64,000 nucleotides of DNA, taken from Narthecium ossifragum. Taxonomy: Eukaryota; Streptophyta; Magnoliopsida; Dioscoreales; Nartheciaceae. The position numbers and the translations under genes were made by a program. Of the stretch, positions 5,039 through 42,514 are shown one piece after another. Positions within the stretch are counted from its first letter, which is position 1, and each line of letters begins with the position of its first letter. A model generated the notes under the pieces. That model did no database searches, was not told where the DNA came from, and was given only the letters and a program-made list of their open reading frames with translations. The stretch covers positions 5,125,054 to 5,189,053 of the forward strand of contig OY986973.1 of the NCBI GenBank assembly GCA_963920575.1, in the 5' to 3' direction.

Positions 5039-5039
5039 A

Positions 5040-6265: not shown

Positions 6266-6301
6266 TTAGGTTGTTCTTATCCAATTTGATTTTTAATTAT
6301 A

Positions 6302-20000: not shown

Positions 20001-21166
20001 GAGCTACTTTTATACATCACGGAATAGAGTAATCGACGGCCCTTTGTAAGACCTCCTGTTTCCTGTCCATCCTCCTTCGCATCATATCACCAATATGTTG
20101 TGTACCCACACTGACGAGACGTGAAAAGTGTCGCGGCTTAACGCGCCCGATCAAAATTAGAAATTTATAATCGAACTACTAATTAACTACCTTTGGGGGT
20201 AGCTAGCGGTGAGTCCGAGTCGAATCCACAGGGAATGCGTAAGGAAACAATTAAATTACCAAGCTCAATCTAAGTGTTCCTACAAGGATAATAAAAGAAA
20301 TGGTTTTTGGGTTTTATGATAAGGAAACTAAGAAAGCATGTAAATGATTCAATGGATAGAAAGAGGTCCTAGGGAATCCCAATCCGGATTAGGCTCAATC
20401 ATAGCTTTCTAATGAATCAAGATGTGTAATCCTATCGAGATACTACAATATCGACTACCTTGGGGCTAACAAAGGTCGTCGCTAACGAATAACCGGATAA
20501 GGACTATCCGTCGCACTAGGTGTATGTTAGAAAGTCGACGATCGAGGGATTAGCTACAATCATCGCCAACGAGAAGTCGGGTTAGGATCATCTCGTCGCA
20601 AGGAATCGGGTTATATGGAGTACGGTAATGGATCGAGGTGGTTCTAGCACATCGCATCCAATACACTACAAAAGATAGGATAGATGCTAGGTTAGATGTG
20701 GATTGGAGTGGTTCTAGCACAACCAAGTCTCTAACCTAGAGCCAAGATTCCCTTCAACACAAGTGGCCATGGTTCTAGCACAACCTACTCATTGGGGAAT
20801 ATCAACAAACACCTATTGGGCACAAGGTTCTAGCTTATGCATACCAAAAGATTCATCCATCCAACATTAGAATCCAACTACAAGGGTATAGAAATGAAGA
20901 ATAAATTCATACAACTTGTCTCATAAGGATTACAACATCCAAATGCAAAGAAAACTATAATAAAAACCTAAAACATCATGGTATTCCACTAGGTAAATAG
21001 ATTAGCTACTCATCTTCGATAGAGAAGCCATGGAGAAGAGATGGATCCTCTTCTTCATCAATCTCCTCCCTCTTGGATGAGAGCTCCCTTCCTTGCCCAA
21101 GGGGGTTGCCCCTTTCCTTAGCCTCTTTTTGTCCAAAAGAATCCCCAAAATCCCCCAAAAGGGGTC

Positions 21167-21174
21167 TATTTATA
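21167..21174 (-). promoter_or_regulatory. TATA-like box of element A
   Basis: The minus strand reads TATAAATA. It has the same position relative to the GATCGATC array as the TATAAATA of sister element B. Confidence 0.6.
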
Positions 21175-21237
21175 GCCTCCAAGCATCCCCCACTTGGATT
21201 AGATCTGGACCATTGATTTTGCTCGGCTGGCACAAAA

Positions 21238-21404
21238 GGATCGATCCTTATAGGGTAAAGGATCGATCTTTTCTCTTGAGTTCTGGCTGCGCCCCGACGA
21301 GGATCGATCCTCTAGTAGATGGAGATCGATCCTAGAGAATGTTGCGTTCTGTCTCTGGAAAATCTGCAAAAAGGATCGATCTTTTATACACAGAGGATCG
21401 ATCT
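21238..21404 (-). repeat. GATCGATC array in element A
   Basis: Six GATCGATC cores begin at 21239, 21261, 21302, 21324, 21374 and 21396. They form three pairs, each spaced exactly 22 bp, with unrelated spacers. The nearest core lies about 64 bp upstream of the minus-strand TATA-like box of the element. Confidence 0.93.
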
Positions 21405-24114
21405 TCTTTTCTGCATATTATCTCTTTTGCCATTCAGCACTGCGCATTGGTACGAAAAATGCCATAACTTCATTTAGGAAACCCGGAATCATGAACCGTA
21501 AAATTCTTCAGAAACTAGACTTCCAGAGCTTTCCAATGATATATGGCACATTATCTGGTTCTTCCTGAGAAGGTACAGTTTAATCTTTGAAGTTGACCCA
21601 TGTACCTAAATGTGCTCGAATAGGCTCGTTTACGCTCCAAAGTTGATCTAAGTCTTGTTGAAGGCTCTTGTACCTGAAATACCATGAAGATTATTAGAAA
21701 TACCTTGCTCGAAGACTAATAAAGGTAAATTAAGGGGTTAACTTGTGTACTTTTCACGTCTCATCACACACTCCCGTCGGCCCCCTTGTCTTCTTACCCT
21801 TCTTGATGTACTCTCGCTGTTGTCGCTTTCTGCCAGAAGAACCCGACGCATCCGTGCCAGTACCACTGCCTCCTCGTGTACTTTGTGGCGTGACTTGTGG
21901 TATTCGGTCACTGGAGTAGATATCTTGTGACCCGTCACCGTATGTTGAAGTCAATGGTCCTCTTGCATGAAATTCGTCGATATTGATATTAATAGTAGAA
22001 ATACGTGATGGAAACGTGCGAAGAGGAGGTACCTGAGCATCAGACGGAGTATCCGATGATCCAGTGCTCTCAGATATCTCCTCAACCACTATCTTACCAT
22101 CGATCTTGCTGTTGGAGGAATACGCACGCTCACCGTTGGCAGTATTTTTGCTTGTTTTGAGATTCATGACATCATAAAAGAGTAGACCTTGTCTCTGAGT
22201 GGGATGAACTTTGGAAATTCCTAGAGGATAGGAAAGAGAATATTAGATTATGTTAATAAGTCTCTTTAGAGCAAACATATGAATACTACTATTCAATTCT
22301 TACCTTAACAAGCTCGTCCCATCCCCTTACATCAGGTGGTAGGGGCATATTTCTGTCACTGCTCCAACCCCATCCGCTCATGCCCACAAGCTTTTTGTAG
22401 ATGGCATGTGTCTTTTTTAGGGTTTTCAACCTATGCTTGAGGTTTTTTAACTCAACCTTCTTCGCACGTTTCTCGTTTAATTCGTCCAGAACTTTATGGC
22501 ATGCATCTTTAGTAAACTGGCCGTTAATAAAGAACCCGTCAAGGAGTTTTCTTCTCAGTATTTCTAGCAATTGGTTATCCTCGGCTTCTTTCCAATTTTC
22601 TTTCCTGTCTATTGTATTAGTATTGGCATTCCTCCTGGGCATATTTCTAACAATTATGTATTTCTAATAAACATTCTTGTACAACATGCATGGTGAATAA
22701 TATAACAAGCTCGATGACTTGAATCCATTTTTCAAATAATAGACAATTGCTAAGAGCAGAGGACCAAGGCTCCCCTTAATTCTGTGTTAATTATCTATTT
22801 GCTCTTTTATTGCTTTCTTTGCTCCTTATATATGCTCAGTATAAAGGAGAAACAGGGATAGAGGTAAACAAGGAAAAATTGAAACATATCAATCATTTCT
22901 GTGGGTTGGCTTGCAAATCATCAACATTGAAACAGATGAAGGATCATAGGTACTCATGGCAACATAGTGTAGAAGAAGAGATCAATGAAACAACTTGGTT
23001 TCATAAGCAAAAACAGTCAACATACAACTTGTTCCTATGCATTCCAAAATAGAAATGCATTTTTATGTATTTGTTGCATAACTCTAGCATAGTTTTGTGC
23101 CATATAAAATCTCGTCTATGATATCACTCACTGCAAATCCACAGACAACTTGTTCTAGAGCATGAGCAAATGTGAGAATGCAAAAACAGAAATCAAGGAT
23201 GAAGCCAAACACTGTGGAAAATTATTCCCTACGAATAACCCAAGAATAGAACTAGTTTAAGAAGAAAGGAAAAATCGAGAAGAAAGAAGAAAGAAGAAAG
23301 AAGAAAGCAGCAAGAAGCCACGACAAAATCGAGAAACAATCCATACTCTCTCAAGAAGCTACAACAAAATCAGTTAACTAGAAAGAAGAAAACCATGATT
23401 CATACCAAGATCAGAGAAAAAACCAAACAAAATAGAGACTGAAAAAGGGGAAATAGACATCAAGCATTCATGTTAGGGAAGGAAAAAAACCAAAGAGGAA
23501 AGAGAGAAGACTTACCTGGAGAAGGTGATCGGAAGGTCAAGTTCTCTCCATGAGAAAAGAAGTGTTGTGTAGAGTGATTTGGAAAAGAAGGGGCTTGAAT
23601 GGGGGTTCCGCTCCTGTGCGTGGCATGGGATCGACGAAGGCAGGACCTCTTACTCTGAGGAGCACCAGATCTGTCCCTCTACATAGCGATCTCCGGCCAT
23701 CACCGCCATTTTGTTATCAAGAGGATGCAAGCTCGGCTGCCGGTCGCCATTGCTGGTAGGGTTCAGAGTAGATGGGTGGATAGGTTTTCTCCAAGGAAAA
23801 GATGACAGGGGGGAGGGACTACCTGTCGCCGTTGTTGGTAGGGATGAAATCGGCGGATAGGTTTTCTCCAGGAAAAGAGGAGGGGGGTCGGGGTGAGAGG
23901 GGATGCCGGGGTGGGTAAAAGCGGAAGGTGCCTTGGGTAAAAAATCGATTTTAAAATGGTGGAATAAATGATAGCCGGTGAAGTCATCCCCGCTTATTCC
24001 TCTTGCATGTGGGATCCATTTTATTCCCACAAAGTTATTCCCATCTCGTTTGGGATTAAGTATGGGAATAAGAGGGTTATTCCCCCCTTATTCCCATACC
24101 AAACAGGGATAGGC

Positions 24115-27100
24115 TTATAGGGAACTAAACTCCCTCACCTGGGCAGCACGAGCTAGCTCGTCTGCCCTTACATTCCACTCTCTAGGTATGTAAACTAGCG
24201 AGAAATTAACAAAATTTCCCAAGTGCCACCAAAGATCCAAAAGCAACTTCCGGCAATCATCATTGATAGGCATTCGCGCATTAACCATATCCACAACAAA
24301 TCTAGAGTCGCTTTCAACCAATATGCTCGTCAGGCCCTGTCGGCTAGCCTCCTGAACCGATGGTAGAATTGCGAAGATCTATGCTTGAAGCGCCGAACTA
24401 GCTGACGATGCCAATGAGAATTCCCAAGCTTGATCAGACCCCTGAAAGCAGACGACCCCAATGCCCATTGATCCAGCAATGAAGGAAGCATCCACATGTA
24501 TGCGCACACCATCCCAAGCCTCGCGCTCCGTTCTGCGTGCTTTCTGGCCATTTAGGAGGAGAAACTCCCTTACCTGCCACTTAATGCTGCGGCTCAAACT
24601 CGGAATCGCATCCCCCTCTTGTCCATGGACCACGCTGCACCTCCTCTTCTAGAGAGACCAGAGAGTGTAACAAATGCTAGATTGGGTCAACCTAGTAGCA
24701 TATGATTTCTGGGGCTTGAGTAACCAGTCCAAGCACAATGAAAGGTTTATTGAGTGAGGATCCAGATCAGAGTCCTCCAACATAGACCTCCAGATAGCGG
24801 ACGCCACAACACTCAAAGAAAATATGATCGAAGGTCTCCTCCTCGGCACCATAAGCAGGACAGGCTTTATCACTGATTAAACTCAGTTCCCACAGTATAT
24901 CTCTTGCAGGTACCTTCCCGTGCGCCAGCTTCCAGAGGAACTGCTGCACGAGAAATCCAGCTGGGCTCCGCCAGATACTCCACCAGCATCCCGCCAGCTG
25001 CCGTCAATGCTGATGGCATGCCTCGAGATAGTCATAGCAGGAGCTTGTGGTAGGCTTCCCAGCTGTACCCCACACCCATCGAGACCCAGGCGAGTGAGGA
25101 GGGGGATCAATAGGAATAGCACTCACCTTGGCCACCAAATCTGGGTGAAGAAAAGAGGAAAGCATGTCCTCCCGCCATCCCGAGGAATCCAGAAGCTGTC
25201 CCAGCTCCATCATGTCCGCTTGTGCAGCATCAAAGGTGCAGGCCGATGAAGACAGGGGACCGTCCATCAACCACCAATCTCGCAACACATTTGCATGGCT
25301 TCCTTCCATCACCGGCCATCGGAGCCCCAGCCGAAGTTGGTCCAACGCCCGACAAATGGAGCGCCAAAATGGAGAAGCATTGTAAGGTATCCTACTGGGG
25401 AGAGCTCCGACGCTAATGTTATACTTTGCCACAACCAGTTGCTTCCAGATAGAGTCGGAGCTGTCGAGGAGGGTTGCCGCCCGCCGCATGCGCATCGCCA
25501 GTTGCCATTGGGAGAGGTCCTTGAGCCCAAGACCACCTTGAGATTTATGGGCACATACATGCTCCCAAGCCACTATGGGAGATTCCTCCTTTCTTGCCCT
25601 GCCAAAGGAACTGCCGGATCAACGCTTCCACCTTATGCATGACTGAGATAGGGACTTGAATAGCGGACATCAAGAAGACATGCAGCGACTGCAGCACTGG
25701 TTTCACCAGGGTGACCCGTCCGGCCTTTGCGAGCTTCAGAGAGTGCCACGATGACAGCCGAGACTGCACAACCTAAAATAGGAAGTTGAAGTCGTGGGAG
25801 ACCAGTCACTTGAAATCCAGCGGCACCCCAAGATACCTCCAGGGTCCAACCTTCTCCCTTAAGCTCAGCACCTTCATGACTATGTTCTTCTGCCGATCGG
25901 AGGTTTTCGGAGAGAACTTCAAGCTTGATTTGTCTGGGTTCACCTCCAACCCAGATAGGGTTTTGAATCTCTTCAACACATTCAGCAGCTTTTGAGCTTC
26001 CTCCTTCCCTGCCCTGGCCAGGAAGAGACAGTCATTAGCAAAAAGCAGGTGGGCCACCTGAAACCTGCCCCGATCAAATGACACACCCTCCGGCTCAAAC
26101 AGAGGCTACTTAAGAAGTATGGTGAGCACCTCCTGAGACAAAATGAAAAGATAGGGGGAAATGCGGTCACCTTGTCGGAGTCCACGTCCAGAGGTAAACT
26201 GCTAAGAGACCCGCCCGTTTAGAATGAGGGAGAAGCGCGTCGTCGAAACACAATGGATGATCCACTGAACAAAACTTGCAGGGAAGTTCATTGCGACCAA
26301 CACCTGTTGCAAAAAAGCCAACTTACTGAATCAAACTCTGCTTTGAGATCCGCCTTGACAGCCATGAGCGCTCCCTTCCCCGGTGCTCGACGGGTTTCTT
26401 GCATCACTTTTTGGGCGGTTGCAATATTGTCCAAAATGGATCTCCCATCCACAAATGCAGATTGCTCAACACTCACAAGTGAATTGAGGAGAGGTTTAAG
26501 CCTATTAGCCAAAATAGATGAAATAACCTTATAAAGGACATTGCACAGAGAGACTGGCTTGTAATCCTTAACTCGCCGTGGGTTCTTGCATTTGGGGATG
26601 AAGGAGATGAAGGTGTCGTTCCACCCCGGCGGCGGAGAACCAGATCGGAAGAAGGAGAGGACCAACTCGCAAACATCTTCTCCCACGATGTCTCAATGCT
26701 TGATGTAGAACTCACTCGGAACTCCATCGGGGCCCGGGCATTTGTACCGGCCCATCATTTGCAATGTAGACTTTATCTCCTCCGATGTGACCTCTGCGAG
26801 CAAATTTGATGAGTCTTTAGGAGATATCTTTGGCAACAATGGTAGTTGGTGTTCTTTGTTCACATCACGACCCCTCCACAACTGCTTGAAGTGATCGCAG
26901 AATAGTTTTTCCACTTGTTCTTGGTTCGAGACCACCAGGCCATCCTCTCCTCTAACTTCCATGGTGCGTGAGCGGTGGATGTGAGAAGAGATAGCTTTGT
27001 AAAAGAACCGAGAGTTGCGATCTCAATCTTGAACCCAATCCAAGCGGCGATGCTGGGCTCTGTAGGTGTCATGCTGGAGCTGGACTGTCACCATCTTGTT

Positions 27101-27684
27101 CTCGAGGGATCTCATTCTCTCCTCCAACTGGAGCGGGAGTGGCCCCTCCTCTTCCAGTAGATAGAGGTGTTGAAGTTGTTGGAGAATGGACTGCTGCGAG
27201 TTGAACAGGTCGAAGTCGTCCACCTTGGTCCAGTTCTTGACCTTAGTTATCAATTCCTTCATCCTGCCTTTGAAGACATACTGCTTGGATCCCTTCTTGT
27301 GCCGACTCCAGGCTAGCTCCACGACTCTCCTCAGTTCCTTGGACTCAATCCAGAACTGCTGTAGCCGAAAGATTGACGGCCCCTTTTGGCGCTTCTCAGC
27401 TAACCAACAATGGACGGTGATCCAAACCACTACGATGAAGATGATGGACCTCCGCCTGAGGAAACCACTCCTTCCACTGAAGGTTACACAGAGCGTGATC
27501 TAACCTTTCCAGAATCCGTGAAGACCCCAATCTCCTGTTACTCCAAGTGAACGACGGGCCCCTGAACCACAGATCCAGTAGCTTATCGGAGGCCATGAAC
27601 CGGAGGAAGTCATTCACCGACCTGCTATATTGGAAAGGACGCCCTCCTCTCTTCTTCGATGGCATTGCTAAGACATTGAAGTCC
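24115..27684 (-). pseudogene. LINE ORF2, reverse transcriptase to RNase H part
   Basis: Read on the minus strand in broken frames. The end of the endonuclease domain (DFNVLAMPSKK, GPSFTWSNRR, ILERLDHAL, SGLDHRPLL) lies at about 27684-27396. The reverse transcriptase core follows: FISFIPKCKNPRRVKDYKPVSLCN, SILANRLKPLL, SAFVDGRSILDN and KADLKAEFDSVSW near 26680-26290, then HLLFANDCLFLARAG near 26050. A zinc-binding region (FLWKLAHGKVPARDIL, 24950-24770) and an RNase H domain (HVDASFIAGSMGIGVV; MVESDSRFVVDMV; VYIPREWNVRADELA) complete the order. The usual FADD catalytic motif reads FAND. Many frameshifts mean it is inactive. The 3' end is cut by the Harbinger border, the 5' side by Cassandra at 27690. 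Confidence 0.9.
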
Positions 27685-27846
27685 CCTACTGTGAGGCCCG
27701 CTGGGTCTACCGTGGGACAAGATGCCTGCGCCTGGAGGGCGGGGTTGAGTCGGGTAGCCGGGTAAGCAATCCCACAACGCCTGGGTATGGTCCAGGGTTC
27801 GATATAAGTATATAGTAAGCCCTTAATAGATACAACGCGTTTTAAA

Positions 27847-27953
27847 CCCGTGCTGGCAGTGATCCGCCAGAAAACTTCGAGGTTAAGCGTGCTTGCCTTG
27901 GAGAGGTCCCGGGATGGGTGACCTACTGGGAAGTTTTCCCAGATTTCTGCGGT
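27847..27953 (+). ncRNA. 5S rRNA-derived segment in Cassandra LTR
   Basis: Contains 5S-like blocks in order: 'gtgctggcagtgatccgcc', 'cttcgaggttaagcgtgctt', 'gggatgggtgacctactggg' followed by 'aagt'. These match the plant 5S order (start, A box/intermediate element, C box) with substitutions. In Cassandra this region retains Pol III promoter elements. Here it is part of the LTR, not a functional 5S gene; the 5' and 3' ends of a true 5S are missing. Confidence 0.85.
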
Positions 27954-28059
27954 GAGCCAAAAGTGGACAATATTGTGTCGGGTGGGGCCCTCGGGTGGAT
28001 CCTGGTCAGACCGGGAGCCCGCGGGGCGGGGCCCAGTGGAGGGCCGGGGCGTTACAGTA

Positions 28060-28072
28060 TGGTATCAGAGCC
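28060..28072 (+). other. Primer-binding site (tRNA-iMet)
   Basis: TGGTATCAGAGCC lies 3 bp after the left Cassandra LTR end. It is complementary to the 3' end of initiator tRNA-Met, the standard primer of plant LTR elements, and it fixes the element's orientation as +. Confidence 0.85.
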
Positions 28073-28260
28073 GGTTCCCAGCCGGAAATTGTGCCAGCGA
28101 GTACGCTGGGTCCCGGGATGGGTGACCTACTGGGAAGTTTTTCCAAATTTCTGCGGTGAGCCAAAAGCGGACAATATTGTGTCGGGTGGGGCCCTCGGGT
28201 GGATCCTGGTCGGACCGGGAGCCCGCGGGGCGGGGCCCAGTGGAGGGCCGGGGCGTTACA

Positions 28261-28673
28261 CCTACCATCAAGTGTGGCCAGCCTCTGGCATTGATCTTAG
28301 TAAGGACGTCCCAGAGCTCCTCCCGGCCCCTCCATGATCGAGCTCCATACACCACCGAGAGAAACCACTGGTAGTGGCGTTGAGAGGTGAAGACTCCATG
28401 GATGGCTTGCTCCGTGAAGTGCGTGAAGTAGCCTCTTCCTACACTCTCCCTCCAAACAACCAAGATCCCACCCTGCTTCCCCCTGGACGATAGAAGGTAG
28501 GTACACCAGCTCGCGCCCAGTCTTGTTGAGATGAGCTGCAAGTGTTCTTCCAAGACCACCACCTCCAGTAGGAACATGAAGTCCACACCTCTGTCCACGA
28601 TCAGGCGTCCACACACCCCTGCAACCCTTCGCGGCCCAAGGCCATGGCAATTCCACACTAGAAAACTAGTCAT
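28261..28673 (-). pseudogene. LINE ORF2 start: AP-endonuclease domain
   Basis: On the minus strand an ATG at 28673 opens a frame beginning MTSFLVWNCHGLG, the first motif of plant LINE endonucleases (WNCRG-like). It runs through FLLEV, GGILVVWRE and WHY-like positions to GWPHLMVG at the Cassandra border. The other side of Cassandra (27684 downward) continues as DFNVLAM, so the catalytic GDFN motif is divided by the insertion. The start codon overlaps the stop of an upstream ORF1 frame in ATGA (28670-28673). Confidence 0.85.
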
Positions 28674-28726
28674 TGGCAAACTGTGGAAAAGCTATGCTCC
28701 GTAGCCTCAAGATTAGAGGGTCGCGG

Positions 28727-31243
28727 TGTCGCGCCCCGACCAGCGAAAGCCCAACCGGGCCGAGCGACGCGAACCGCAACCTACAAAACGCGAAAAAAGA
28801 ACGGCAAGGGTTCCCTCTAACCTATTGGTCTCCCTAGCAGTTCACCAAAAGCACCCTCAATTGGAACAACATTGATTAGCAAAACCTCGAACCACAGATT
28901 TAAATTCAAAGTGTTAATATACAAATCCTCGGAGAGGGGAAGATTCAAAATACAACATACTCCCGTAGGAGACTAACTAACATAAGGTAAAAGCAATAAA
29001 CGATCACCACCTCTCAAAAGCCACCAGGCGCCGCCGCACCGCCAACCAACTGCCCGGTAGGGGCCACAGAGGAAGAACTGACGCCTGCACCTGCAAAACG
29101 CAGCCCGGGTAGGTGTGAGCACTAAGCTCAGTAGGGATCTACACTACGACACACAGAAGGAAGAGAGAAACGCAACAGTGTCGCCCTCAAGTGGAACCTG
29201 GGTGTATACAGGGGTCCCATAACCCCACCGCGTGTCCCTGAGGCCCACGATCATGGTCTTCCAGCCGGGTTGGTCACATGTCAGGTCACACTCAGTAGCA
29301 GGAGACGACACTGCTAACTCTCAACAGGACACTGAACACTGTTTGGTGGGAAAAGACACCACTTAGTAGGTAACTCCTCTACTCAAGAGTTTTAAGAATA
29401 CCGGACACCGGCTACACCTCAGATCCGACTCGAGGCCAACACGACCTCTACAATCATCAAGAAACAAGTGCGCCAGTCATCTAGGCCTAACATCGAATCA
29501 ACTGGGCACCACAATTCAAACCGGGTCCAAACAACCCAACCCCGGTCCTAGGGCTAAGTCCGAGCTTCCAGCCTCGGGACGGCGACCCAAAGATCACCAA
29601 CGCCCTAACCAATGCAACTAATGCACAAGTCAATGATGCATGCTATGACATACGCAGACAGGAGATAGGCATGCAACAGTATATCAAACATCATAAAAGT
29701 CAACCGGATCGCTGTAGCGGTACTACCAACCGCTGCCAGCCGATCCGCAGCGGGTCCCGGCATTACGACGGTACCGCGACCGTCGACCGCGGACTCCTGC
29801 AACGGGAAGCAACCCCGAAAACGATGATGAACAATAAACAATATAATATTATATTCCGAAATATAATATTATATTCAAACACCCAAAACCACTACTTAGG
29901 GGCTAATTGATTCCGTCGATCCGACGTCCAAACGACGTCGGATTCAAGATCCAACTTAGCCACAAGTAGGTGTATATACCAGGATCAATATATCCAAAAT
30001 TCATAATCATCCAACGGTTGAATTAACGGAAAAACATTAATCAAAACCACTAAAAAAATGGACCATAAAACACCATAAGCTAGCCTTGGGATCGATCCGA
30101 ACAATTTGGATCGATCCGAAGGCTTCACACCAGCTTACCCATTTAATTGCTGCAACGCAGCCCTCCAGTAAACAATTCATAAGAAATCGTAGCAAAATAG
30201 GAAAATTATGAAACAAGATTGAATGGAAAGCTAACGAAGAGATCTACAACTCTTATGTTTATCACAAACCAAGATCATGTACGTGCCGGCCGAAAAACTC
30301 GCCGCAAGCCGGCTGTTCTTCAAGAACAGCAGAAAACAGAGAATCCGAACTTAATCATGCATAAAACCTACTCAAATCTCAACTGATTAACATGAAGCTT
30401 AAATCAGTAAATCTAATAGGGATAAGGAATCCAACAAAATAAAGATCAACAAGATCCAACGGCTAGATCTAGAGAACAACCCGAAACAACATCAGTAGGT
30501 ATAACCCTACCTAGCAGCGCTTTCCTCGGCTGATTCCCCGCGAGTTGATCACCAACAAGCTTCCAAACCACTTCAGGGATCTTCCTCTCGTTGCCACGGA
30601 TCCAACGAGCCTTAGAACACCCAAATTGATGGTCGGAGGAGGGAGAACGGAAGAGGAGAAGGTGGCTGCCGGAAAAACAGGGGAAGAGCAACGTCGGGAG
30701 AGAAGAAAGAAGAAGAAGAAGAAGAAGGAAGGAGGGGAAGAAGAAAAGGAGGAAAGGGGGAGGGGACAGCCGGGAAAGAGGGGAGAAAGGTGAAGGAGGG
30801 GAGGGAAAGTCCTCCCCCTCTGACAGAGGAGAGCGACGGCCAACGGCTGTCCTCGCGAAAGAGAAGGAAACCATCGACTAGCTACAGTGTCTGGATCGAT
30901 CCAACACCATGCTGGATCGATCCAAGACAAGGATGGATCGATCCAACACTAGTTGGGATCGATCCACAGGGTCAAAAACCCCCCGACTCGCTCACGAGTC
31001 CGATCGATCGCTCCTACGAGCGACCGATCACTCGAGGGCCGCCAGCAGCCCAAAGACGGGCTGTTGCGCGCCCGAGCTGGGATCCTCCGATCCCGGGTCC
31101 ACCTAGCCATTCTAAGCAAACACTAACACAGACAAGGTCAGTGTGTGCACACGCGGGTGTGAAACAAACCAACAAGGCGCAATTTACCAAATTACCTTTG
31201 CAGTCTACAACGAGCCACATGGGTAGAGGGGCAGGTCCTCACA
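28727..31243 (-). mobile_element. Solo LTR 1 (TGTGAGGACC...GGGGCGCGACA family)
   Basis: A 2517-bp unit; the plus strand starts TGTCGCGCCCCGAC and ends GGTCCTCACA. The 5-bp flanks are CGCGG (28722-28726) and CGCAG (31244-31248), a TSD with one later change. The element has no internal domain or primer site, so it is a solo LTR. Minus orientation is inferred: on that strand the GATCGATC array precedes a long pyrimidine-rich leader (30640-30800). Inner landmarks shared with copies 2-4 are 'aatataatattatattc', a 'cattacgac' block and the conserved tail 'ggtccacctagccattct'. It sits between LINE ORF2 and an ORF1 remnant. Confidence 0.92.
30893..31029 (-). repeat. GATCGATC array in solo LTR 1
   Basis: GGATCGATCC begins at 30893, 30914, 30935 and 30956, an exact 21-bp period with different 11-bp spacers. 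A further pair (GATCGATC at 31002, GACCGATC at 31022; 20 bp) follows. An isolated pair lies at 30090 and 30109 (19 bp). The flanking blocks ('gagagcgacggccaacggc' and 'gatcccgggtccacctagcc') are conserved between LTR copies while the array itself differs. Confidence 0.94.
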
Positions 31244-31336: not shown

Positions 31337-31339
31337 TGG

Positions 31340-31993
31340 CTGTTAGTAATCAGAACTGTCGTGGCTGTTAGTAATCAGAACTGTCATGATCACATACATT
31401 GAGTGGCTGTTATATACTTGTGCATGTACGATTTGGTTTCTCAGTGTCTTGGAAATGGAACATTAGCCATGAGGATTTGGTGGCTGCTGAAACTGGAGCC
31501 ACATAGAGCCCAACTAGTTTCAAAGAGCTTCCTCAGTGACCCCTAGCATTAAAGAGAGAAAGAGCAAGCTGGGGAAGAGAGGGAGGGCTATGGTGGCTGT
31601 TGCACATGAGGCTTTGGAAAAACTCGGTGAACGTCTGGGAGATCTAAACGAGGCACTAAAAAAGTCAAAGAACTACGACATCAACCATGACTTATTTGAA
31701 GACTTTGATGAAGATGGTGGAACATGGATATGAGGAGGGCCATCTCGTTGCTGCTTATGATCATCTTGGACTGAATGCAGTGGCAGAACCAGGATGAGAC
31801 TTAAGGGGAGTGAAATTTAAAGTAAAATGACTAATTTTTTTTTTCTTTTAAGTAATGCAAAAAATACCTTAGAATTACAATATCGAACATTAAACAATAA
31901 AAATAATATAAATATTAAAATATACGTACCGTACTATGTGTTGCGATTGAGAGGTGAAAGTTGGATCCTATGCTTTTGTATTTTTTGAAAACG
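31340..31993. other. Gene-free stretch with local duplications
   Basis: 'gagtggctgttagtaatcagaactgtc' and pieces of it are repeated at 31332-31415, together with a repeated 'gatcacatacattgagtggc'. A short frame at 31536-31733 rich in Lys/Glu (KERKSKLGKRGRA, LEDFDEDGG-like end) has no recognised family and I do not call it a gene. Confidence 0.4.
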
Positions 31994-32915
31994 TTACAAA
32001 ATGACTTCGTTTTCAATAGTTTTAAAAAAATTTCGCTCGATGTATACCACCATGCAATCATTTATCCAGTCATCTCCCATCTTATTACGTAAATAAGACT
32101 TGACAATCTTTATCGAAGAGAAGACTCTCTCAACGATTGCAGTCGCAACTGATAAGACCAATGCCAACTCAATAAGAAGATAAACCAATGGAAATAGAGC
32201 ATTTTTTCTAGTTTCAACCATCTTCACCGCAAGACTTCCAATATCTTGAAGTTCAGAAAAATCATCATTTCTTCTAACGTCTCTAATGTAGGTGTTAAGC
32301 TGATCTCTGAGTATCATACGATCAGCTGCTGTGAAATCATCTGGATAAAGTTCAGCAAGACGACATAACTTAGCATGTTCAAATGTTGAGAATGATTTTC
32401 TTGGATTAAGGCATGCTATGCAAAGAGGTAACTCCGTACTTACTTCTGTGAAACGATGATTCATCTCTTGAGTGATGAAATCAATAACTTGGAAAAACAC
32501 TTCAACATGAAAATGATGCATATAAGTAATACTTTGCCCTCCAGAGCTTCCACGCCTCAAATGTCTGCGAGTTGGTATAATATCTTCCATATTGGGTACA
32601 CTAATAGAATTATTGGCACAAAAAGTTTTGACTTCTTCCAAAAATTTATTCCATTTTGTCTCCCTCAAATGTTGCAGTCGTTCCTTCACTACTCCAACCA
32701 AACTCATAGCATTAACTATATCTTGATCCTTTCGCTGCAAGACCTATGACAATTCATTCGTAATCCCATTATATCCCTCATCAAATGCATAGTGAATACA
32801 AACTCAAAGCTTTCCATCTTATCCATCAAACTCATAGCCATGGATCTTTGTTCTGATTGAACTCCATCATCTTTTATATTTTCAAGAACTTCCAACACTG
32901 ATGACCACATATTGA
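31994..32915 (-). pseudogene. hAT transposase C-terminal fragment (ZMYM1-like)
   Basis: The minus strand from about 32915 reads MWSSVLEVLENIKDDG and SMESFEFVF-like text (MDKMESFEFVFTMHLMRDI), then shifts frame near 32740. It continues for 248 codons through MSLVGVVKERLQHLRE to the hAT C-terminal dimerisation region (LVLSVATAIVERVFSS, KSYLRNKMGDDWINDCMV, YIERNFF). This matches plant 'zinc finger MYM-type 1-like' transposons. The N-terminal TTF zinc finger and catalytic DDE start are absent. The missing part lies where a Copia-like solo LTR begins (32936). Confidence 0.88.
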
Positions 32916-32961
32916 AAAGAAGGATTATTGTAAGGTGTTGGTGTGTAGAGAAGCCGTTTCT

Positions 32962-33221
32962 GGATCGATCCAGGAAGGCTCTGGATCGATCCAGAACTGC
33001 CATCCAGAGAGGCGTCAACAGAGCGGATCGATCCAGATCCACAATGGATCGATCCGAGGATCTTGTTCCATAGACGTAGATTGAAGCAGCGCCCAGTGGA
33101 TCGATCCAAACCCAAACCTGGATCGATCCAATACCACAGTGGATCGATCCCAGACCGTTGACAGAGAACTGGTTTGGCCGACGCACAGTTGGATCAATCC
33201 ATACCTCTCTTGGATTGATCC
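32962..33221 (+). repeat. GATCGATC array in Copia-like LTR
   Basis: GGATCGATCC starts at 32962, 32983, 33025, 33046, 33098, 33120 and 33141, and degenerate GGATCAATCC and GGATTGATCC at 33191 and 33212. Spacings are 21, 42, 21, 52, 22, 21, 50 and 21 bp. Spacer sequence is unrelated between units. The last core ends about 62 bp before the TATTTAAG box. Confidence 0.94.
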
Positions 33222-33281
33222 AAAAACGGCGAGATGCAAACTTGACCTTGATCGAATGGCTTAAATCACTCTGATTGAGGA

Positions 33282-33289
33282 TATTTAAG
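33282..33289 (+). promoter_or_regulatory. TATA-like box of Copia-like LTR
   Basis: TATTTAAG lies downstream of the array and upstream of a GA-rich leader, matching the usual place of the TATA box in Copia LTRs. Confidence 0.5.
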
Positions 33290-33599
33290 GTCAGGATACA
33301 TGTTAGGGTTAGAATAACGTGGATTCTCATATGGGAGGCCTAGAGAGAGGTCTTAGGGCTTGAGAGAAAGCAAAGACAGAGAGAGAGCTGTAAGTACGTG
33401 AGAGCGTATTGGGAGGGAAGAGAGGTTTGGTGTGAGAGTTAGAGAGTGCTCTGTAATCTCCTCACATAGTGAAGCTCTTCTTCCCATGTTTTTTCCTTTG
33501 CGGTAATTTACCGGAAGGTTTTCCATGTTAAACCGGTGTCTCCTATTTGTTCTCTTGCTTTCCATCTTGGTTTCATCCCCGCAGAATTCCTAACACATC

Positions 33600-34519: not shown

Positions 34520-34566
34520 GGGGAACCCAAATTAGTGACGAGGGAGGGTGGATTGGCGACAAGGGA
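34520..34566. repeat. Left remnant of G-rich minisatellite
   Basis: 'gacgagggagggtggattggcgacaaggga' is of the same type as the units at 39157-39460. Together they are one array split by solo LTR 2. Confidence 0.65.
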
Positions 34567-35566
34567 TGTCGCGCCCCGACCCGTGTAGGCCCAACCGGGG
34601 CGTGCGACGTGAACCGGAACCTAACCTACTGCAGAAATTTTGGCGAGGTTTTCCTCTAATCATAGTGGTCTCCCTAGCAAATCATAATCATTATGTATTA
34701 TACAAACAATCACAAACCTCAAAAACTGAATTTGAAATATATACAAATCTTCAACAGGGTAAAAGTTATACAAATCACTCCCGTAGGAGGCTAACTAAGC
34801 AAAAGGATAGAACTGATGATCGTCGCACCTCAAACACCGCCAGACGCCGCCAAACACCGGCCCAGTGGGGGCGACCGAAGAAGAGTTAGCGCCAGCACCT
34901 ACAAAACGGAGCCCGGGTAGGAGTGAGCACTAAGCTCAGCAGGGACACTACACTACGACATTCACAAGGGAGGGAGCACAACAGTGCCACCCCCAAGTCT
35001 ACCCTAGGTGTATACAAGGGTCCCATAACCCTATCGGAAGTCCGTGAACGTAGGACCAAAACACTGCAGACTCACAATAGGATACTGAACACTGTTTGGC
35101 GGGCAAGGACACCGCTGGGTAGGCACTCCTCGACCCAAGAGTCAAGAACACCGGACTCCGGCTACACCTCAGATACAACTTGGAGTCGACACGACCTCTA
35201 AACATCAAACCACATGTATTCAGATCATCTAACCCTATCATCGAAAAATGACTGAATACTACAAATCGAGTCCTGGACCAAGCTACCCACAACGGTCCTA
35301 GAGCTAGATCCGGACTACCCGAAAGCCCCGGATCGGCGATCAACCCATCGCCAACGTCCTACACAGATGCAACTAATGCACAAAGTAATGCATGTTATGA
35401 GCACACGCAAGAATATACAGATAAGCATGCATCAGTATGTGATTGTATATCAAACAAGGTCTGGGCACAACACCCTGCCGGCCCGGGGTGGTGAACAGGT
35501 AAGTAAGGTCTAGGAGCTGCTACAGTGGTACCACCACCAACTGTCAACAGTCCACCACAACACCTG

Positions 35567-37968
35567 TGTCGCGCCCCGACCCGCGAAAGCCCAACCAGGC
35601 CGGGCGACGCGAACCGAAACCTAACAAACCGCGGAAAATAATGACGAGGGTTCCCTCTAACCTATTGGTCTCCCTAACAGTTCACCAAAAACACCACCAA
35701 TTAAAAGACAATAATTTAATGAAACCTCGAACCACAGATTTAAGAACTCAAAAAGATTTAATATACATATTCTCGGAGAGGGGGGAGTTCAAATATAACA
35801 TTACTCCCGTAGGAGACTATCTAACATAGGATAAAAATTGTAAAGGATCACCACCTCTCAGACTCTGCCTGACGCCGCCGCATCGCCGACCAACTGCCCG
35901 GTAGGGGCCACGGAAGAAGAACTGACGCCTGCACCTGCTAAACGCAGCCCGGGTAGGAGTGAGCACTAAGCTCAGTAGGGATCTATACTACGACACACAG
36001 AAGGAAGAGGGAAACGCAATAGTGTCGCCCTCAAGTAGGATATGGGTATATACAGGGGTCCCATAACCCCACCGGGTGTCCCTGGTGCCCAGGAGCAGCA
36101 CACAGTAAGCTCAACAAACACTGCTGACTCACATGCAGGAACCCGACACTGCAGGCGGGAAATGGCACCGCTGAGGGGGCCTCTCCACCACTCAAGAGTC
36201 TACACAGTGGAACACCGGCTACACCTCTGTATCCGACTCGAGGCCGACACGACCTCTACAATCATCAAGCAACCAGTGTACCAGTCATCTAAGCCTATCA
36301 TCGAATCGACTGGACACCACAAATCAAACCGGGTCCAAACTACCCAACCCCGGTCCTAGGGCTAAGTCCAAGCTTCCAGCCTCGGGACGGCGACCCACAG
36401 ATCACCCACGCCCTAACCAATGCAACTAATGCACAACAGGGAAAATGTATGCTATGAACATACACAGATAAGAAGCAAAGCATGCAACAGTATGACAGGG
36501 CATCATATAAGTCTACTGGATCGCTGCAGCAGTACTACCAACCGCTGCCAGCCGATCCGCAGCGGGCCCCGGCATTACGACAGTACCACGACCGTCAACC
36601 GCGAACTCCTGCAACTAGAAGCAACCCCGAAAACCGCTGAATGAACAGTAAACAATATAATATTATATTCAAACACCCAAAACCTCTACTTAGGGGCTAA
36701 TTGATCCCATCGATCCGATGTTCAAACGACGTCGAATTCAAGATCCAACTTAGCCATCAGTAGGTGTATATACCATGATCAACATATCCAAAATTCATAA
36801 TCATCCAATGGTTGGATTAACGGGAAAACACTAATCAAAATTGCTAATCAAACTAACTTACCAATTAATTGCTGAAACGCAGCCCTCCAGCAAACAATTC
36901 ATAACAAATTGTAGAAACATCGGAAAAATATGAAATCAATTGGGTTAGAGAGTAGATTCAAAGATCTACAACTCTTATGTTTCTTCACAACCTAAGATCA
37001 CATACACGCCGGCCGAAAAACTCGCCGCAAGCCGGCTGTTCTTCAAGAACAGCAAAAAACTGGAAATTCGAGATTAATCATGCATAAAACCTACTCAAAT
37101 CTCAACCAAATATCATGAAACTTATATCAGTAATTCTACTGGGCATGAGGAATCTAAAAACACTAAGATCAACAACATCCAACGGCTAGATCTAGAGAAA
37201 ACCCGAAAACAACATCAGTAGGTATAAACCTACCTAACAGCGCTTTCCTCGGCTGATTCCCCGCGAGTTGATCACCAACAAGGTTCCAAACCACTTCAGG
37301 GATCTTCCTCTCGTTGTCACGGATCCAACGAGCCTTAGAACACCCAAAATGATGGTCGTCGGAGGGAGAACGGAGGAGATGAAGCTCGCTGCCGGAAATA
37401 GGGGAAGGAAGCAGAGCTTTCGGGAGAAGAAAGAAGAAGGAAGAAGAAAGGAGAAGGAGGAGGAGAAGAGGAAGAAAAGGAGGGAAAAGGGGGAGGGGAA
37501 AGCCGGGGGAAGGGGGGAAAAGAGAAAGAAGGGGAGGGAAAGTCCTCCCCCTTTGACAGGAGAGAGCGACGGCCAACGGCGGCCGTCCTCGCGAAGCAGA
37601 AAAGCCACCGACGCGAGTCCGATCGGTCGCTCCAAGGAGCGATCGATCGCTCGCGCCCCGGATCGATCCCAACACCAAGTCGGATCGATCCGAGCGGGTC
37701 AAACCCACCGACTCGCTCACGAGTCCGATCGATCGTTCCAAGGAGCGATCGATCGCTCAAGGGTCGTCAGCTGCCCAAAGGCAAGCTTCCGCGCGCCTGA
37801 GCTGGGATCTTCCGATCCCGGGTCCACCTAGCCATTCTAAATAAGCATTAACACAAATATGGCCAGTGTGTGCACATGCGGGTGTGAAACAAACCAACAA
37901 GACGCAATTTACCAAATTGCCATTGCGGTCTACAACGAGCCACAGGGATAGAGGGACAGGTCCTCACA
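35567..37968 (-). mobile_element. Solo LTR 3, nested in LTR 2
   Basis: 2402 bp, TGTCGCGCCCCGAC to GGTCCTCACA, with a perfect TSD ACCTG (35562-35566 and 37969-37973). It is very close to LTR 1 over most of its length: the 'ccgctgccagccgatccgca' block, 'aatataatattatattc', the 'ccttcgcgagttgatcacc'-like region and the GA-rich tract 37420-37540. It inserted into a relative of its own family. Confidence 0.94.
37621..37754 (-). repeat. GATCGATC array in solo LTR 3
   Basis: Cores (one degenerate) at 37621, 37641, 37661 and 37683 (spacings 20, 20 and 22), and a pair at 37727 and 37747 (20). Several cores sit in larger palindromes such as gagcgatcgatcgctc. Confidence 0.9.
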
Positions 37969-38264
37969 ACCTGCATTGGGAAGCAGCCCCGCAAACAACA
38001 GCTCACAGATATCATAGATAAAGCCTTCGGCGCACGCCAACATGCAAGGCTAAGGAAAGCTGTAGGGCTACCCGCCCGTTTATTCTAAACATCCCGGGAG
38101 TCATCACTCCCCCGGTTCACCACTGCCCCTATTATAGGGCTAACATGCTTAAACATATGTACAAGATATAAAACAGTAGAGAAAACCATCATACAAAGCC
38201 CCGTGGGCAAAAGCCACATGAAAACACCCCTCAGCCACTAAGAGATCTAATCCCTTCCCAAGGG

Positions 38265-38475
38265 GATCGATTTTCTTAGTACTTGGGAGAAAACTCGTCC
38301 CTGTCAACCAAAGGAGATCGATCATCTCCACCAGAAGAATCGATCTTCTTCGTGACATGGAACCCGCCACCTCAACCTAGGCAAGGATCGATCTTCTCCC
38401 ACCGAGGGATCGATCCTGCTCGGGCTGGACGTGACGCCCCAGAAGGGATCGATCTTCCCTCAAGGCAGATCGATC
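38265..38475 (-). repeat. GATCGATC array, distal part, in solo LTR 2
   Basis: Cores at 38265 (GATCGATT), 38316 and 38338 (spacing 22), 38386 and 38408 (22), and 38447 and 38468 (21). They come as pairs with unrelated spacers. Confidence 0.88.
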
Positions 38476-38846
38476 CGAATGGGTTCTCCGGCGACCGGAC
38501 GGTGAGAAATACCGCCGGATTATACAACCAAATCCCCCAAAACTCTGGGATCTGGTAGATCAAGCAACCGCGAGTCCAAAACCGGTGAAATCATGGAAAA
38601 CAAACATGTATTTTAACAGATCTAAGCAAAAGATCACAATCAAACCGGAAAAACTCCAAAAACCCGAAAGATTGTAGGTAGGATCCCTACCTATGCAATA
38701 GCAGCTTCAATCCAAGCTACTTGGCCTTAGATCTTCCTCAAATGAAGCCAAATCCAGCAAGAACACGGTTGAAATCTTGGAGTTTCAAAAAAATCAAAAG
38801 AAAAGAGTTTCGTTCGTTTTATAGACGAACGAACCGACTCAAGAGA

Positions 38847-38944
38847 GATCGATCTCTTTTGAGAAAGAGATCGATCTTCCTTTGCCAAATCAGGGTTGAC
38901 TTTCTGGCACTAAGAGATCGATCTTCTAGCTAGGGAGATCGATC
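38847..38944 (-). repeat. GATCGATC array, proximal part, in solo LTR 2
   Basis: Pairs at 38847/38869 (22 bp) and 38916/38937 (21 bp). A TATAAAAC on the minus strand (about 38816-38823) lies 24 bp downstream in the inferred transcription direction. Confidence 0.88.
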
Positions 38945-39156
38945 CCTTAGATGCAAAAAGCTAGACTTGGGCTAAAACTTAATCCCAAGCCCGGATCTTT
39001 CGATCCCGGGTCCCACTAACCATTCTAGCCAAATATTTCCACAAACATGGTTAGTGTGTGCACATGTGGGTGTGAAACCAGCCGACAAGGCGCAATTTAC
39101 CAAATTGCCCTTGCGGTCCATAACGAGCCACAAGAGTAGAGGGACGGGTCCTCACA

Positions 39157-39460
39157 AGGGAGCCCGGATCGGCGATGAGGGAGTTGGATCGGTGAGGGGA
39201 GAGCCCGGATTCACGACGGGGGAGGCTGGATCGGCGGCGGGGGAGGCGAATCGGCGACGTAGTAGCCCGGATCGGCGTCGGGGGAGGCGGATCGGCGACA
39301 GGGGAGGCCGGATCGGCGACGGGGTAGGCGGTTCGGCGACGGAGGCGACAGGGGAGGCTTGATCGGCGATGTGGGAGCCCGGATCGGTGATGGGGGAGGC
39401 GGATCGGTGACGGGGGAGGCCGGATCGGCGGCCGGGGAGGCGGATCGGCAACGACCTCGG
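39157..39460. repeat. G-rich minisatellite
   Basis: Irregular units of about 20-30 bp built from 'ggatcggcgacgggggaggc'. The array is continuous with the remnant at 34520-34566 on the other side of solo LTR 2. Confidence 0.85.
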
Positions 39461-39680
39461 GATTGTGACGGGGACGACCTCGGGATGTGGTGGTGGGGGA
39501 CAGCGGGGCGGCTATGGGGCGCCGGACGCGTGGTGGTGGGGGGACGGCGACGGCGGGGTGACTGTGGGGAGCTGGGCGTGCCGCTGTGGGGGGGGACGGC
39601 GGGGCGGCTGTGGGATCTGGTGGGGGGGATGCCGGGGGGGCTGATATGGGGGGGTTTGGGGGGGCTGATATATATAAAAA
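39461..39680. repeat. G-run-rich block
   Basis: Many runs of 3-8 G on the plus strand (for example ggggggggacggcggggcgg and ggtgggggggatgccggggg). The composition favours G-quadruplexes. No coding region. Confidence 0.75.
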
Positions 39681-40048
39681 CAGGGTATAAGGTTATTATA
39701 GTATTCTATCCCTTATAGTTAGGGGTGTACAGCGGGTCGGGTCAACAGGTTAACGGGTCAGGTCGGACCTGACTCGTTAATTTTTTAGGGCCTTATGACC
39801 CGCCCGTTAACCTGTTAATTTATCAACAGGTTAACATGTTCACGGGTCAACAGGTTAACAGGTAAACATGTACAAGTAACTGATAACGCGCGAAAAGTGC
39901 ACAAATCGCCCCTATAACTAGGTCCTATTAGCCTCCGAGCAATGCTATTTTGATGGTGTATGGTACATTTCAGGTATAAGAGCCTTCAACAAAAGTTAGG
40001 TCAAGTTTGATGCTAAAACGAAGCTATTCTGGCAATTCTGCGCAACTC

Positions 40049-40364
40049 AGATCAATCTGACATCCAAAGGAGATCGATCTGACTATTCCAGCAAGAAGCG
40101 GTCCAACTGAAGCAAAGAAGATCGATCTCAATACAAGCAGATCGATCTACTTTCCAGCCGCAGGCGTGACAGAGAGTTAAATAAAAGCACTTCCCAACGG
40201 GATCGATCTGAGACAAGCCAGATCGATCTGAACCTGGTGACTCTAGTCAGCCGTCCAAAGAAGATCGATCCGTTTTTCCAAGGAGATCGATCATGGTCGG
40301 GCGAAATCCAGATCCTGAGTTCACGGACGAAGAAGATCGATCCATTTTCCAAAGGGGATCGATC
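40049..40364 (+). repeat. GATCGATC array in element B
   Basis: Ten cores in five pairs: 40050 (GATCAATC)/40072, 40120/40140, 40201/40221, 40263/40285 and 40335/40357. Spacings inside pairs are 22, 20, 20, 22 and 22 bp. The last core ends 66 bp before TATAAATA. Confidence 0.94.
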
Positions 40365-40429
40365 TCTTTTGGCGCTGCGGGAAAAATAAAGGGCTGAGAT
40401 CTAATCCGAGTTAGGGTTTTACAAAAGCC

Positions 40430-40437
40430 TATAAATA
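40430..40437 (+). promoter_or_regulatory. TATA box of element B
   Basis: TATAAATA in 'agcctataaatagacc'; the equivalent box in element A is at 21167-21174 on the opposite strand. Confidence 0.65.
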
Positions 40438-42514
40438 GACCTTGTTTGAGGAATTTTGGCAGCGATCCATAGATGAATTTTCCTTTCCTCCTTGGCTCTT
40501 TCTTTGCTTCTCTTCCACAAATCTAGGTTAGAATCTCAAGGTTTGATCCATGGGTGGTGCTTCTCATCGACTTTCATCGACGGATCTTCCCCTTGAGATG
40601 AGTAACTAAACTCTAGTTTAGAAATTTCTATGATGTATTAGAGATCTTATCTAGGGTTTTCCTATGGATTAGAGCATGTACTTGATGATGGTTTAATGGA
40701 TAGATTTCAGATTTTATATATCTATTGGTAATATTTATTATGGTGAATGAATTGTATGTTCTTTGTGCCCTAGAATTCGGCCTGTCTTTCTTCGGTTTTT
40801 CCGTGGTTGTACAGCTGGAATCTTTGAAAACTCAAAATACAAAAGTTGTAGATCTCTTCCTTAGCTTTCCACCAAATCTTGAATAATCACATTTCGAGTT
40901 CGGATGTGAAAGTTACACTGAGATTACGATCGCTGGTTTTGAGCATTGCATGTTAGAGGCTAGGATTAGGACTTTTCCAAGATACTTTCATGCTAGAACC
41001 ATGTTAGATCTTAGGATTGGATTCTAAACCCTAGATTATGATTGTAGGAGTGATAGAACCACTACCTTAATGCTAGAACCATTAAGACCTATGATTATAA
41101 CCTACAATTCGTTCCTTATCTTTATTGATTAGGTGATCTCAAAGTGCTAGAACCACTTTGATTATTCTCATACCAATTATCTGCTGATTTGATCTTCGTT
41201 CGACGAAGACTTCTTACAAATATTTGTTAAGTGATAGGTAGATCTAGCCATTCTCCTATCAACTTTTGGAAAACCATCTCTGATTTATGGTTTTGCTCTC
41301 ATTCTAGGAAAACCTAGATAGTTCTTGACTACGGATTAGAAATTCCTAGCTTTTTTTTCTCCTATTGTTATTCCCCCGATTTAGTTTAATTCGAGTTAAA
41401 AGTAGTTCGAAAACCAACTATCATTCCTTTTTATTAACTTTTGATTTAGAATTATGCACGACAATTCGGCTTAATCCTGTTTTCCCTGTGGACCGACTCG
41501 GACTCATTGCTATCTACCCATAAAGTAGTTAGTTAGTGATTCGGATTATAAATTTCTAATTTTGGCGTATTTGTTAAGACTACGACACTTTTCAAGACGT
41601 GTCAGTAACCCATTAACCCGTTATTAGTACCACATGAATAAATATAAAGTTTTAAATTACAATCTATTAATTCAAAATTCAAACAACGTAAGCACATAAA
41701 TCTAAGTTGTGCCACATGAAGAAATATAAAGTTTTAAAGTACAATCTATTAATTCAAAATTCAACCAAAAATAGCATAACAAATGATTAAATCATAATTG
41801 AGCTTTTCCGAGTTGATTTGAGGATGAAGGCCGTAGGGTGGTTGTAAAAGATGGACGGCTATTAGAACTTGGTTAGGAGCTTAGTGGACATCTATCTCTG
41901 CATCACAACCAAAGGTACAAATTATCAATAATTCTAAGAAACACCACATAGAAAATTTAAATTAGATCATGGCATGCAATGTATCTAAAAAGATGTCATT
42001 ATGAGAGAGTTTTGTACTGAATTCAAGTGTATAGTAATAAACAAAACAACTACTCAATATATATATATATATATATATACTTGTAATTTGTAAATAGTCT
42101 TTATTCTAAAACGGGTAAAACGGGTTACCCGTTAAGAAAAACTTAAGCACCCATTACCCGACCCGGTATTATTGTAACGGGTCAGGTCTGACTCGACCCG
42201 TTTACGACTACCTTATGACCCGCCCGTTAAGGTTCGGGTCAGGTTAATTTTTCGGGTCGAAACGGGTTACCCAAGGTTGTACACCGCTACTTATAGTGGT
42301 ACTAAAACACTTATCATCTTTTATAGGGGATCAAATGATAGACCATTTGACAAATCTTCCTAAAAATTAACAATAAAATCTCAGAATAAAAGAAAAACTT
42401 GTTTTGTTTGGACACGTGTATGCTCACTGGCTGGTCACTGGACCCAACCAATCCAACAAAGAAACGAGCGCCGAGCAGACCTCCTCTTTATATTCTCCTC
42501 ACTCTATCCTCCCC

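Follow-up and report, generated by a model that had tools for sequence, protein, structure and literature searches.

The LTR elements of the window

The stretch analysed here is a 64,000-base window of the Narthecium ossifragum genome (contig OY986973.1, positions 5,125,054 to 5,189,053 of the forward strand). It contains seven long terminal repeats (LTRs) of retrotransposons, all of which carry arrays of the palindromic 8-mer GATCGATC, hereafter called the core. Everything reported below concerns this one window, one genome and seven LTRs of three families. The LTRs are:

Element A, 20112..21766, minus strand: solo LTR of 1655 bp with TG..CA ends and target duplication CACAC; TATAAAT at LTR position 593
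Element B, 39881..41604, plus strand: solo LTR of 1724 bp with target duplication GTAAC; TATAAAT at position 550
LTR1, 28727..31243, minus strand (by homology with LTR3): probable solo LTR of 2517 bp with flanks CGCGG/CGCAG (4 of 5 alike)
LTR2, 35567..37968, minus strand: solo LTR of 2402 bp with a perfect target duplication, ACCTG, nested in LTR3
LTR3, 34567..39156, minus strand: solo LTR with a perfect 5-bp target duplication, AGGGA, interrupted by LTR2
LTR4, 61966..64000, plus strand: member of the family of LTR1-3, incomplete because it runs off the window; TG mutated
Cop, 32936..33595, plus strand: Copia-like LTR of 660 bp, TGTTGG..CCTAACA; TATA-like TATTTAAG at position 347

Elements A and B, LTR2 and LTR3 show TG..CA ends together with a 5-bp target duplication, and in LTR1 four of the five duplicated bases agree; a target duplication of Cop was looked for and not found. 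Of the six complete copies, five have the appearance of solo LTRs. Inspection by eye of the 30 bases past the LTR ends revealed no primer-binding site, nor was any internal region recognisable beside the LTRs. To judge by their end sequences, LTR1-4, which have no attached coding region, may be a Del/Tekay chromovirus family. Cop, likewise devoid of attached coding region, is presumably a copia element, as labelled in the preliminary description of this DNA. A GC-rich minisatellite with a period of about 20-21 bp (GGATCGGCGACGG), lacking the GATCGATC core, lies directly at the end of LTR3 (39158-39453), and a hAT transposase dimerisation domain (31997-32743, minus strand, E 6.7e-5) adjoins Cop.

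A palindromic core concentrated in LTR arrays

The core occurs 47 times in the 64,000 bases, against a mean of 0.83 in dinucleotide shuffles (maximum 4; none of 100 reaching 47). It is the most frequent of the 130 palindromic 8-mers present, the next being TATATATA (28 copies), and also the 8-mer that recurs most often at 19-22 bp (23 times); the runner-up in that respect, GGATCGAT (12 times), overlaps it. The LTRs, 13,181 bp altogether, hold 46 of the 47 copies, all within array blocks totalling 1,619 bp. The sole copy outside LTRs, at position 7158, lies in the remaining 50,819 bp. Exact cores number six in A, nine in B, seven in Cop, seven in LTR1, five in LTR2, nine in LTR3 and three in LTR4, which is cut by the window. 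Adding seven in-register sites with one mismatch brings the array sites to 53. The arrays, listed without strand, are:

Array A, 21239..21403: six GATCGATC in three pairs (22, 22 and 22 bp inside; 41 and 50 bp between); ends 65 bp before a TATA box
Array L1a, 30090..30116: two exact cores, a pair 19 bp apart in a segment of about 71 bp of LTR1; inverted repeat AGCCTT-c-GGATCGATCC-9 nt-GGATCGATCC-c-AAGGCT
Array L1b, 30894..31029: five exact cores and GACCGATC at 31022; a run of four at 21 bp, then a pair
Array Cop, 32963..33220: seven exact and two one-mismatch cores (33192, 33213); pairs and one triple; ends 62 bp before a TATA-like word
Array L2, 37621..37754: five exact cores and GATCGGTC at 37621
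Array L3a, 38316..38475: five exact cores; three pairs, one core being AATCGATC at 38338; the array lies past the TATA box when read on the strand bearing it
Array L3b, 38847..38944: four exact cores in two pairs; ends 24 bp before TATAAAA
Array B, 40050..40364: nine exact cores and GATCAATC at 40050; five pairs; ends 66 bp before a TATA box
Array L4, 62185..62258: three exact cores and GATTGATC at 62207; a run of four at 22 bp

By eye, the type of flank does not follow family. Most sites in A, B, LTR3 and LTR4 read (A/G)GATCGATC(C/T) with purine-rich outer flanks, while TGGATCGATCCA is found in Cop and LTR1, and CGATCGATCG in LTR2 and part of LTR1.

Cores are arranged in pairs

Two classes of gap separate the sites. 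Short gaps measure 20-22 bp (n = 29, mean 21.3, standard deviation 0.8; the 19-bp pair of L1a is not counted) and long gaps 39-61 bp (n = 14, mean 47, standard deviation 5.4). The two classes alternate strictly in A, B (nine gaps), L3a and L3b, and likewise in Cop except for one triple; runs of four sites occur in LTR1, LTR2 and LTR4, those of LTR2 and LTR4 including one mismatched site each. Neighbouring gaps are alike in 7 instances against 17.5 expected, and none of 20,000 shuffles of the gap order within arrays matched this alternation. Thus, the unit of the arrays is mostly two dyads placed two helical turns apart. Strict helical phasing of the whole array was rejected, the long gaps being spread over 39-61 bp.

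These results agree with the preliminary description in its count of at least 45 cores where fewer than one was expected by chance, and the motif is not equally frequent outside the LTRs of the 64-kb window. Its coordinates, 20112..41604, left out LTR4 (61966-64000). The 19-22 bp spacing that it gave for the arrays is that of the short gaps (20-22 bp, 19 bp in L1a), but the arrays are not plain ones, consisting mostly of pairs with 39-61 bp between them, an arrangement that it did not mention.

Three main arrays lie upstream of TATA boxes

The arrays of A, B and LTR3 end 65, 66 and 24 bp, respectively, before a match to TATA[AT]A[AT], and that of Cop ends 62 bp before the TATA-like word TATTTAAG. 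Three of the seven LTRs have a strict match within 100 bp past the array, for which comparison with shuffles gives P 0.00004. Around the TATA box, A is homologous to B; when A is left out as a relative of B, the match is found in two of six LTRs (P 0.0026).

Array turnover within a family and comparison between families

The first 171 bp of the alignment of LTR1 with LTR4 show 90% identity; blastn gives no match through the array, after which the two align again at 77% and 85%. Core arrays stand at LTR positions 215-350 in LTR1 and 220-293 in LTR4 despite this unalignable block. The array block has therefore been replaced and its flanks kept: cassette exchange occurs inside the family, and the array of LTR1-4 is a replaceable cassette. 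By eye, LTR3 and LTR4 have the start of another array type in common. The segment of about 71 bp that carries the L1a pair is missing at the same point from LTR2 and LTR4, a difference that may be due to a gain or to a loss. Where the arrays of LTR1 and LTR2 align, 45 of 48 ungapped core columns are identical, compared with 124 of 162 other columns, the cores having been chosen by exact match in one of the two arrays, a choice that favours them.

For comparisons between families, the arrays were masked and blastn was run with E up to 0.1. This joined A with B (71-81%) and LTR1-4 with one another (69-90%). The homology of A with B covers the promoter part and both ends, the ends being 78-81% identical, and LTR1 and LTR2 are 83-88% identical. 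Between families, only two matches were obtained, one of 47 bp joining B and LTR1 (85%, E 1.7e-9) and a weak one of 26 bp joining Cop and LTR4 (E 0.007). On these grounds we rejected the idea of one family in disguise. The preliminary description was right to distinguish three families; its statement that they show no visible similarity outside the arrays has to be corrected for these two short matches.

The 47-bp piece shared by B and LTR1 (30214-30260 and 40835-40881) contains GTTGTAGATCTCTTCnTTAGCTTTCCA and has the same orientation relative to the array in both. It could be a conserved part of R/U5 or the product of an exchange.

A candidate promoter-proximal control block

On balance, we read the arrays as U3 promoter-proximal cis-regulatory blocks for a dimeric host DNA-binding factor, probably used by several LTR lineages. 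Each GATCGATC would be a dyad site bound by the dimer, and two sites 20-22 bp apart, about two helical turns, would form the working pair; two to five such pairs would stand upstream of the retrotransposon TATA box and presumably activate transcription. Different LTR lineages would retain the 8-bp core through the turnover of flanks, of spacers and of entire arrays, and we propose that this retention stems from dependence of several families on the same factor. A binding site for a host factor is the most likely use of the motif. As leads only, the (A/G)GATC half-sites resemble those of GARP-type factors such as type-B ARRs, and the paired dyads are reminiscent of as-1/ocs elements.

A number of observations weigh against this reading. 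TATA patterns are absent throughout LTR1, LTR2 and LTR4; TATTTAAG joined the pattern only after it had been seen in Cop; further TATA matches occur at positions 379 (inside the array) and 1598 of A and 835 and 1667 of B; and L3a and L1a sit downstream of the promoter part. The lengths of the long gaps do not fall on multiples of the helical turn. When the LTR3 and LTR4 arrays are aligned, conservation of the cores does not exceed that of the other columns (31 of 36 and 78 of 93 identical, respectively). CpG transitions account for four of the seven one-mismatch sites, which is what decaying, methylated old copies would show, and the copies are old solo LTRs or fragments and thus no guide to present activity. 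Finally, the two members of a pair tend to have complementary outer flanks, as detailed below, which is unexpected for independent protein sites.

Could the pairs act as stem-loops?

The last point bears on the alternative that each pair folds, in RNA or in extruded DNA, into a hairpin whose loop measures at most about 14 nt. U3 being copied into the 3' end of the transcript, such a hairpin might serve packaging or RNA stability, or be cut by the host into silencing small RNAs. Pair by pair within arrays, the outer flanks are complementary at 53 of 95 positions against 42.4 expected (19 pairs, 5 nt, p 0.002), with p values of 0.013, 0.021 and 0.036 at 3, 7 and 10 nt; this test comprised six comparisons at several depths and is hence suggestive. 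No pair-level signal was found in the same test for the inner flanks (p 0.69), single-site symmetry or direct likeness. In predicted folds, paired cores pair mutually in L1a, Cop, L3b and two of the three pairs of L3a, the third including a mismatched core that was not tracked; on the other hand, only one of three pairs folds on itself in A, B gives a mixed picture, and in L2 and L4 the folds join different pairs. When the cores were held and the other letters shuffled, folding was in excess, from z -1.35 (B) to -6.2 (L1b), combined -10.6 over nine arrays. With the core held together with 2 nt on either side, the combined value over the nine fell to -5.7, coming from the LTR1-4 arrays; A, B and Cop showed no excess (z -0.7, 0.0 and 0.4). 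Within-array swaps indicated that a pair folds better with its own right flank than with the flanks of other pairs in 12 of 16 cases (p 0.03).

In maize, small RNAs are reported to map in excess to the clusters of palindromes in Sirevirus LTRs (Bousios et al. 2016, via PMC10760457). Against the hairpin, LTR1 and LTR2 also carry inverted repeats without cores (by eye), runs of four sites leave members without a unique partner, and a location just before the TATA box better suits protein sites. We also considered palindromic flanks of single sites as the real unit. Their symmetry is strong over all 46 array cores but tracks array type, and within arrays it amounts to only 129 of 265 positions against 120.6 (p 0.09), so this candidate was dropped. 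Hairpins in place of protein sites seem unlikely; the evidence that pairs also form stem-loops is weaker than that for the pairing itself, but suggestive.

Spread between families or repeated gain

The preliminary description left a choice between spread of the module by recombination and convergence of unrelated retrotransposons on one binding site. Spread, by recombination or by template switching during reverse transcription, has a precedent in the array-block replacement inside the LTR1-4 family, and the 47 bp shared outside the arrays by B and LTR1 imply some exchange or common descent between these families. Array likeness was measured against a null in which the sites with 3 nt on either side and the spacing were held fixed, in 34 cross-family comparisons (17 pairs, both orientations) with 100 nulls each. 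In five of the 34, where chance alone would give about two, no more than 5 of 100 nulls reached the observed likeness: B/L3b (0 nulls), B/L4 (1 and 2), B/L3a (2) and A/L1b (5). Four of the six comparisons between B and the LTR3 and LTR4 arrays thus stand out, at no more than 2 of 100 nulls. This excess may reflect exchange, or instead a longer shared site, CCAAAGGA preceding the core by eye, which would account for it without shared descent. The arrays of Cop and LTR1 align across 54 bp at 81%; this likeness, as all 14 comparisons of Cop arrays with others, does not go beyond the null, and a recent transfer of the Cop array to LTR1 was accordingly rejected. As to the choice left by the preliminary description, exchange is seen within LTR1-4 and hinted at for B against LTR3/LTR4, and there is none to see for Cop. 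We lean towards convergence on a common site over transfer, and regard spread between families as a rather improbable source of the arrays as a whole.

Slippage or tandem duplication, by which a simple repeat of the GATC type could have grown neutrally, is a very improbable origin of the arrays. GATC microsatellites do exist, many of the viral-contig matches described below being runs with 4-bp steps. Tandem Repeats Finder reported short tandem arrays in four of the blocks (L1b, L4, and parts of Cop and L2), so that local duplication of 20-22 bp units does contribute, but it reported none in A, B, L3a or L3b. The pairs alternate, arrays that cannot be aligned with one another have this core in common, and the lack of 4-bp steps between cores led us to reject a GATC microsatellite as the whole story.

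Relation to known repeat arrays in transposable elements

The closest counterpart of the control block proposed here is found in Sireviruses, Ty1/copia elements whose LTRs carry palindromic repeated motifs, 8-32 copies per element with linker copies included (Bousios et al. 2010, PMC2829016). Their core is CGG-CCG in 12 of 13 cases, and the motifs form CpG islands, the TATA box lying on average 37 bp past the island; they are reported as specific to Sireviruses and absent from classic copia elements (PMC2829016). As in the arrays of this window, the core of the Sirevirus motifs is kept amid divergent LTRs, and near-identical motifs occur in elements of very low homology (PMC2829016). The Tnd-1 motif ACAATCGATTGT, the Sirevirus exception to CGG-CCG, even has the ATCGAT centre of GATCGATC (PMC2829016).

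Here too a palindromic box is repeated in the upstream half of the LTR, the main arrays standing at LTR positions 28-528 with 3-9 exact cores each. Unlike the Sirevirus motifs, however, the core is GATCGATC, is shared by three LTR families of one genome and stands mostly in pairs 20-22 bp apart. Eight exact cores are reached in two of the seven LTRs, a figure to be read against published counts that include linker copies. CGG-CCG dyads with arms of at least 5 bp number none in A, none in B, one in Cop, one in LTR1, two in LTR2, one in each piece of LTR3 and three in LTR4; one of those in LTR2, CGGATCGATCCG, surrounds a core. The core not being CGG-CCG, we did not file the arrays as Sirevirus motifs. 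The observed/expected ratio of CpG is 0.88-1.65 in seven of the eight array blocks examined and 0.59 in L4, against 0.74 for the window; without the cores it drops to 0.45-1.14 (0.00 in L4). The GC content of the arrays is 0.44-0.63. In build, the arrays closely resemble the Sirevirus palindromic motifs upstream of the TATA box, with another core.

Other systems share single traits. In maize, the Sirevirus palindrome CACCGGACNNNGTCCGGTG occurs in Copia and Helitron elements, according to a 2023 study that also sums up arrays of cis-regulatory repeats, sometimes palindromic, in several families of transposable elements (PMC10760457). There, as here, one palindrome is found across groups of elements, and its clusters are discussed as cis-regulatory sequences and small-RNA sources; the sequence and the host are different, and the account given there describes no paired spacing (PMC10760457). 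Del chromovirus LTRs have a 5' CpG island that varies in length and sequence more than the remainder of the LTR does (Cruz et al. 2014, PMC4029996), and the 5' region of LTR1-4 behaves likewise; the terms 'palindrom' and 'tandem' do not appear in the main text of that paper. In Tnt1, Retrolyc1 and Retrosol, U3 diversifies or is replaced and the rest is kept (PMC1838419), as here; those U3 types differ within one superfamily, whereas the replaced blocks of this window keep the same core, and do so across families. Binding of LTR motifs by host factors is established for single families, such as ONSEN (PMC12786077).

A search of one literature library, which did not extend to motif collections such as PLACE, found no paper on the GATCGATC motif in LTRs; the occurrences of GATCGATC that were examined belonged to an invented example sequence and a table of primers. 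Among viral contigs, a three-site pattern gave 7 stretches and a pair pattern at least 120, the latter in a search that may leave out records near the window's own genome. The 25 densest of 121 viral-contig sequences showed mostly 4-, 25- and 28-bp steps; none of them had more than one gap of 20-21 bp, and none was like the LTR arrays. In a search for mispredicted plant proteins by which arrays elsewhere might be recognised, residues 35-140 of P0121 as query gave 19 candidates and residues 88-235 of P0122 gave 168, none at E 1 in either case. As far as these searches go, the GATCGATC core, its presence in three LTR families within 41 kb and its paired spacing are new.

A bolder version of the control-block reading can be put forward tentatively. 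Unrelated families might have built their promoters independently from one paired palindrome; a single host factor, activating or silencing, might control several of them; and the pair of 8-bp dyads 20-22 bp apart might be a new type of control unit of plant retrotransposons that doubles as a stem-loop. If several families do depend on one host factor, that factor would offer a single point of control over much of a genome's transposon activity and silencing, and the sites carried by LTRs could bring about parallel rewiring of host genes nearby. The arrays also allow a clean test of whether retrotransposon families converge on regulatory cassettes or exchange them, as well as a test of the conflict that arises when palindromes required by transcription also expose the element to RNA silencing.

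Neighbouring features

Comparison of 19 distinct open frames of the window with Pfam identified only the hAT dimerisation domain mentioned above and a carboxylesterase. The remaining features are:

5023-6873: 56/114-bp tandem repeat enclosed by an inverted repeat (5035-5585 against 6311-6873, 81%)
27846-28264: 5S-rRNA-like stretch; two copies of 152 bp with 97.4% identity, between which the primer-site word TGGTATCAGAGC stands at 28060
45801-45872, minus strand: tRNA-Gly (TCC) gene
58978-60003: open frame for a CXE15-like protein (carboxylesterase 15; Abhydrolase_3, E 2.8e-61)

The stretch at 27846-28264 looks like a small element of the Cassandra type, a terminal-repeat retrotransposon in miniature (TRIM). 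The CXE15-like frame suggests a host among the non-grass monocots that lacks a close genome in the database: its best named matches include proteins of Glycine, Musa, Cocos, Elaeis, Canna, Iris and Typha, at 66-73% identity.

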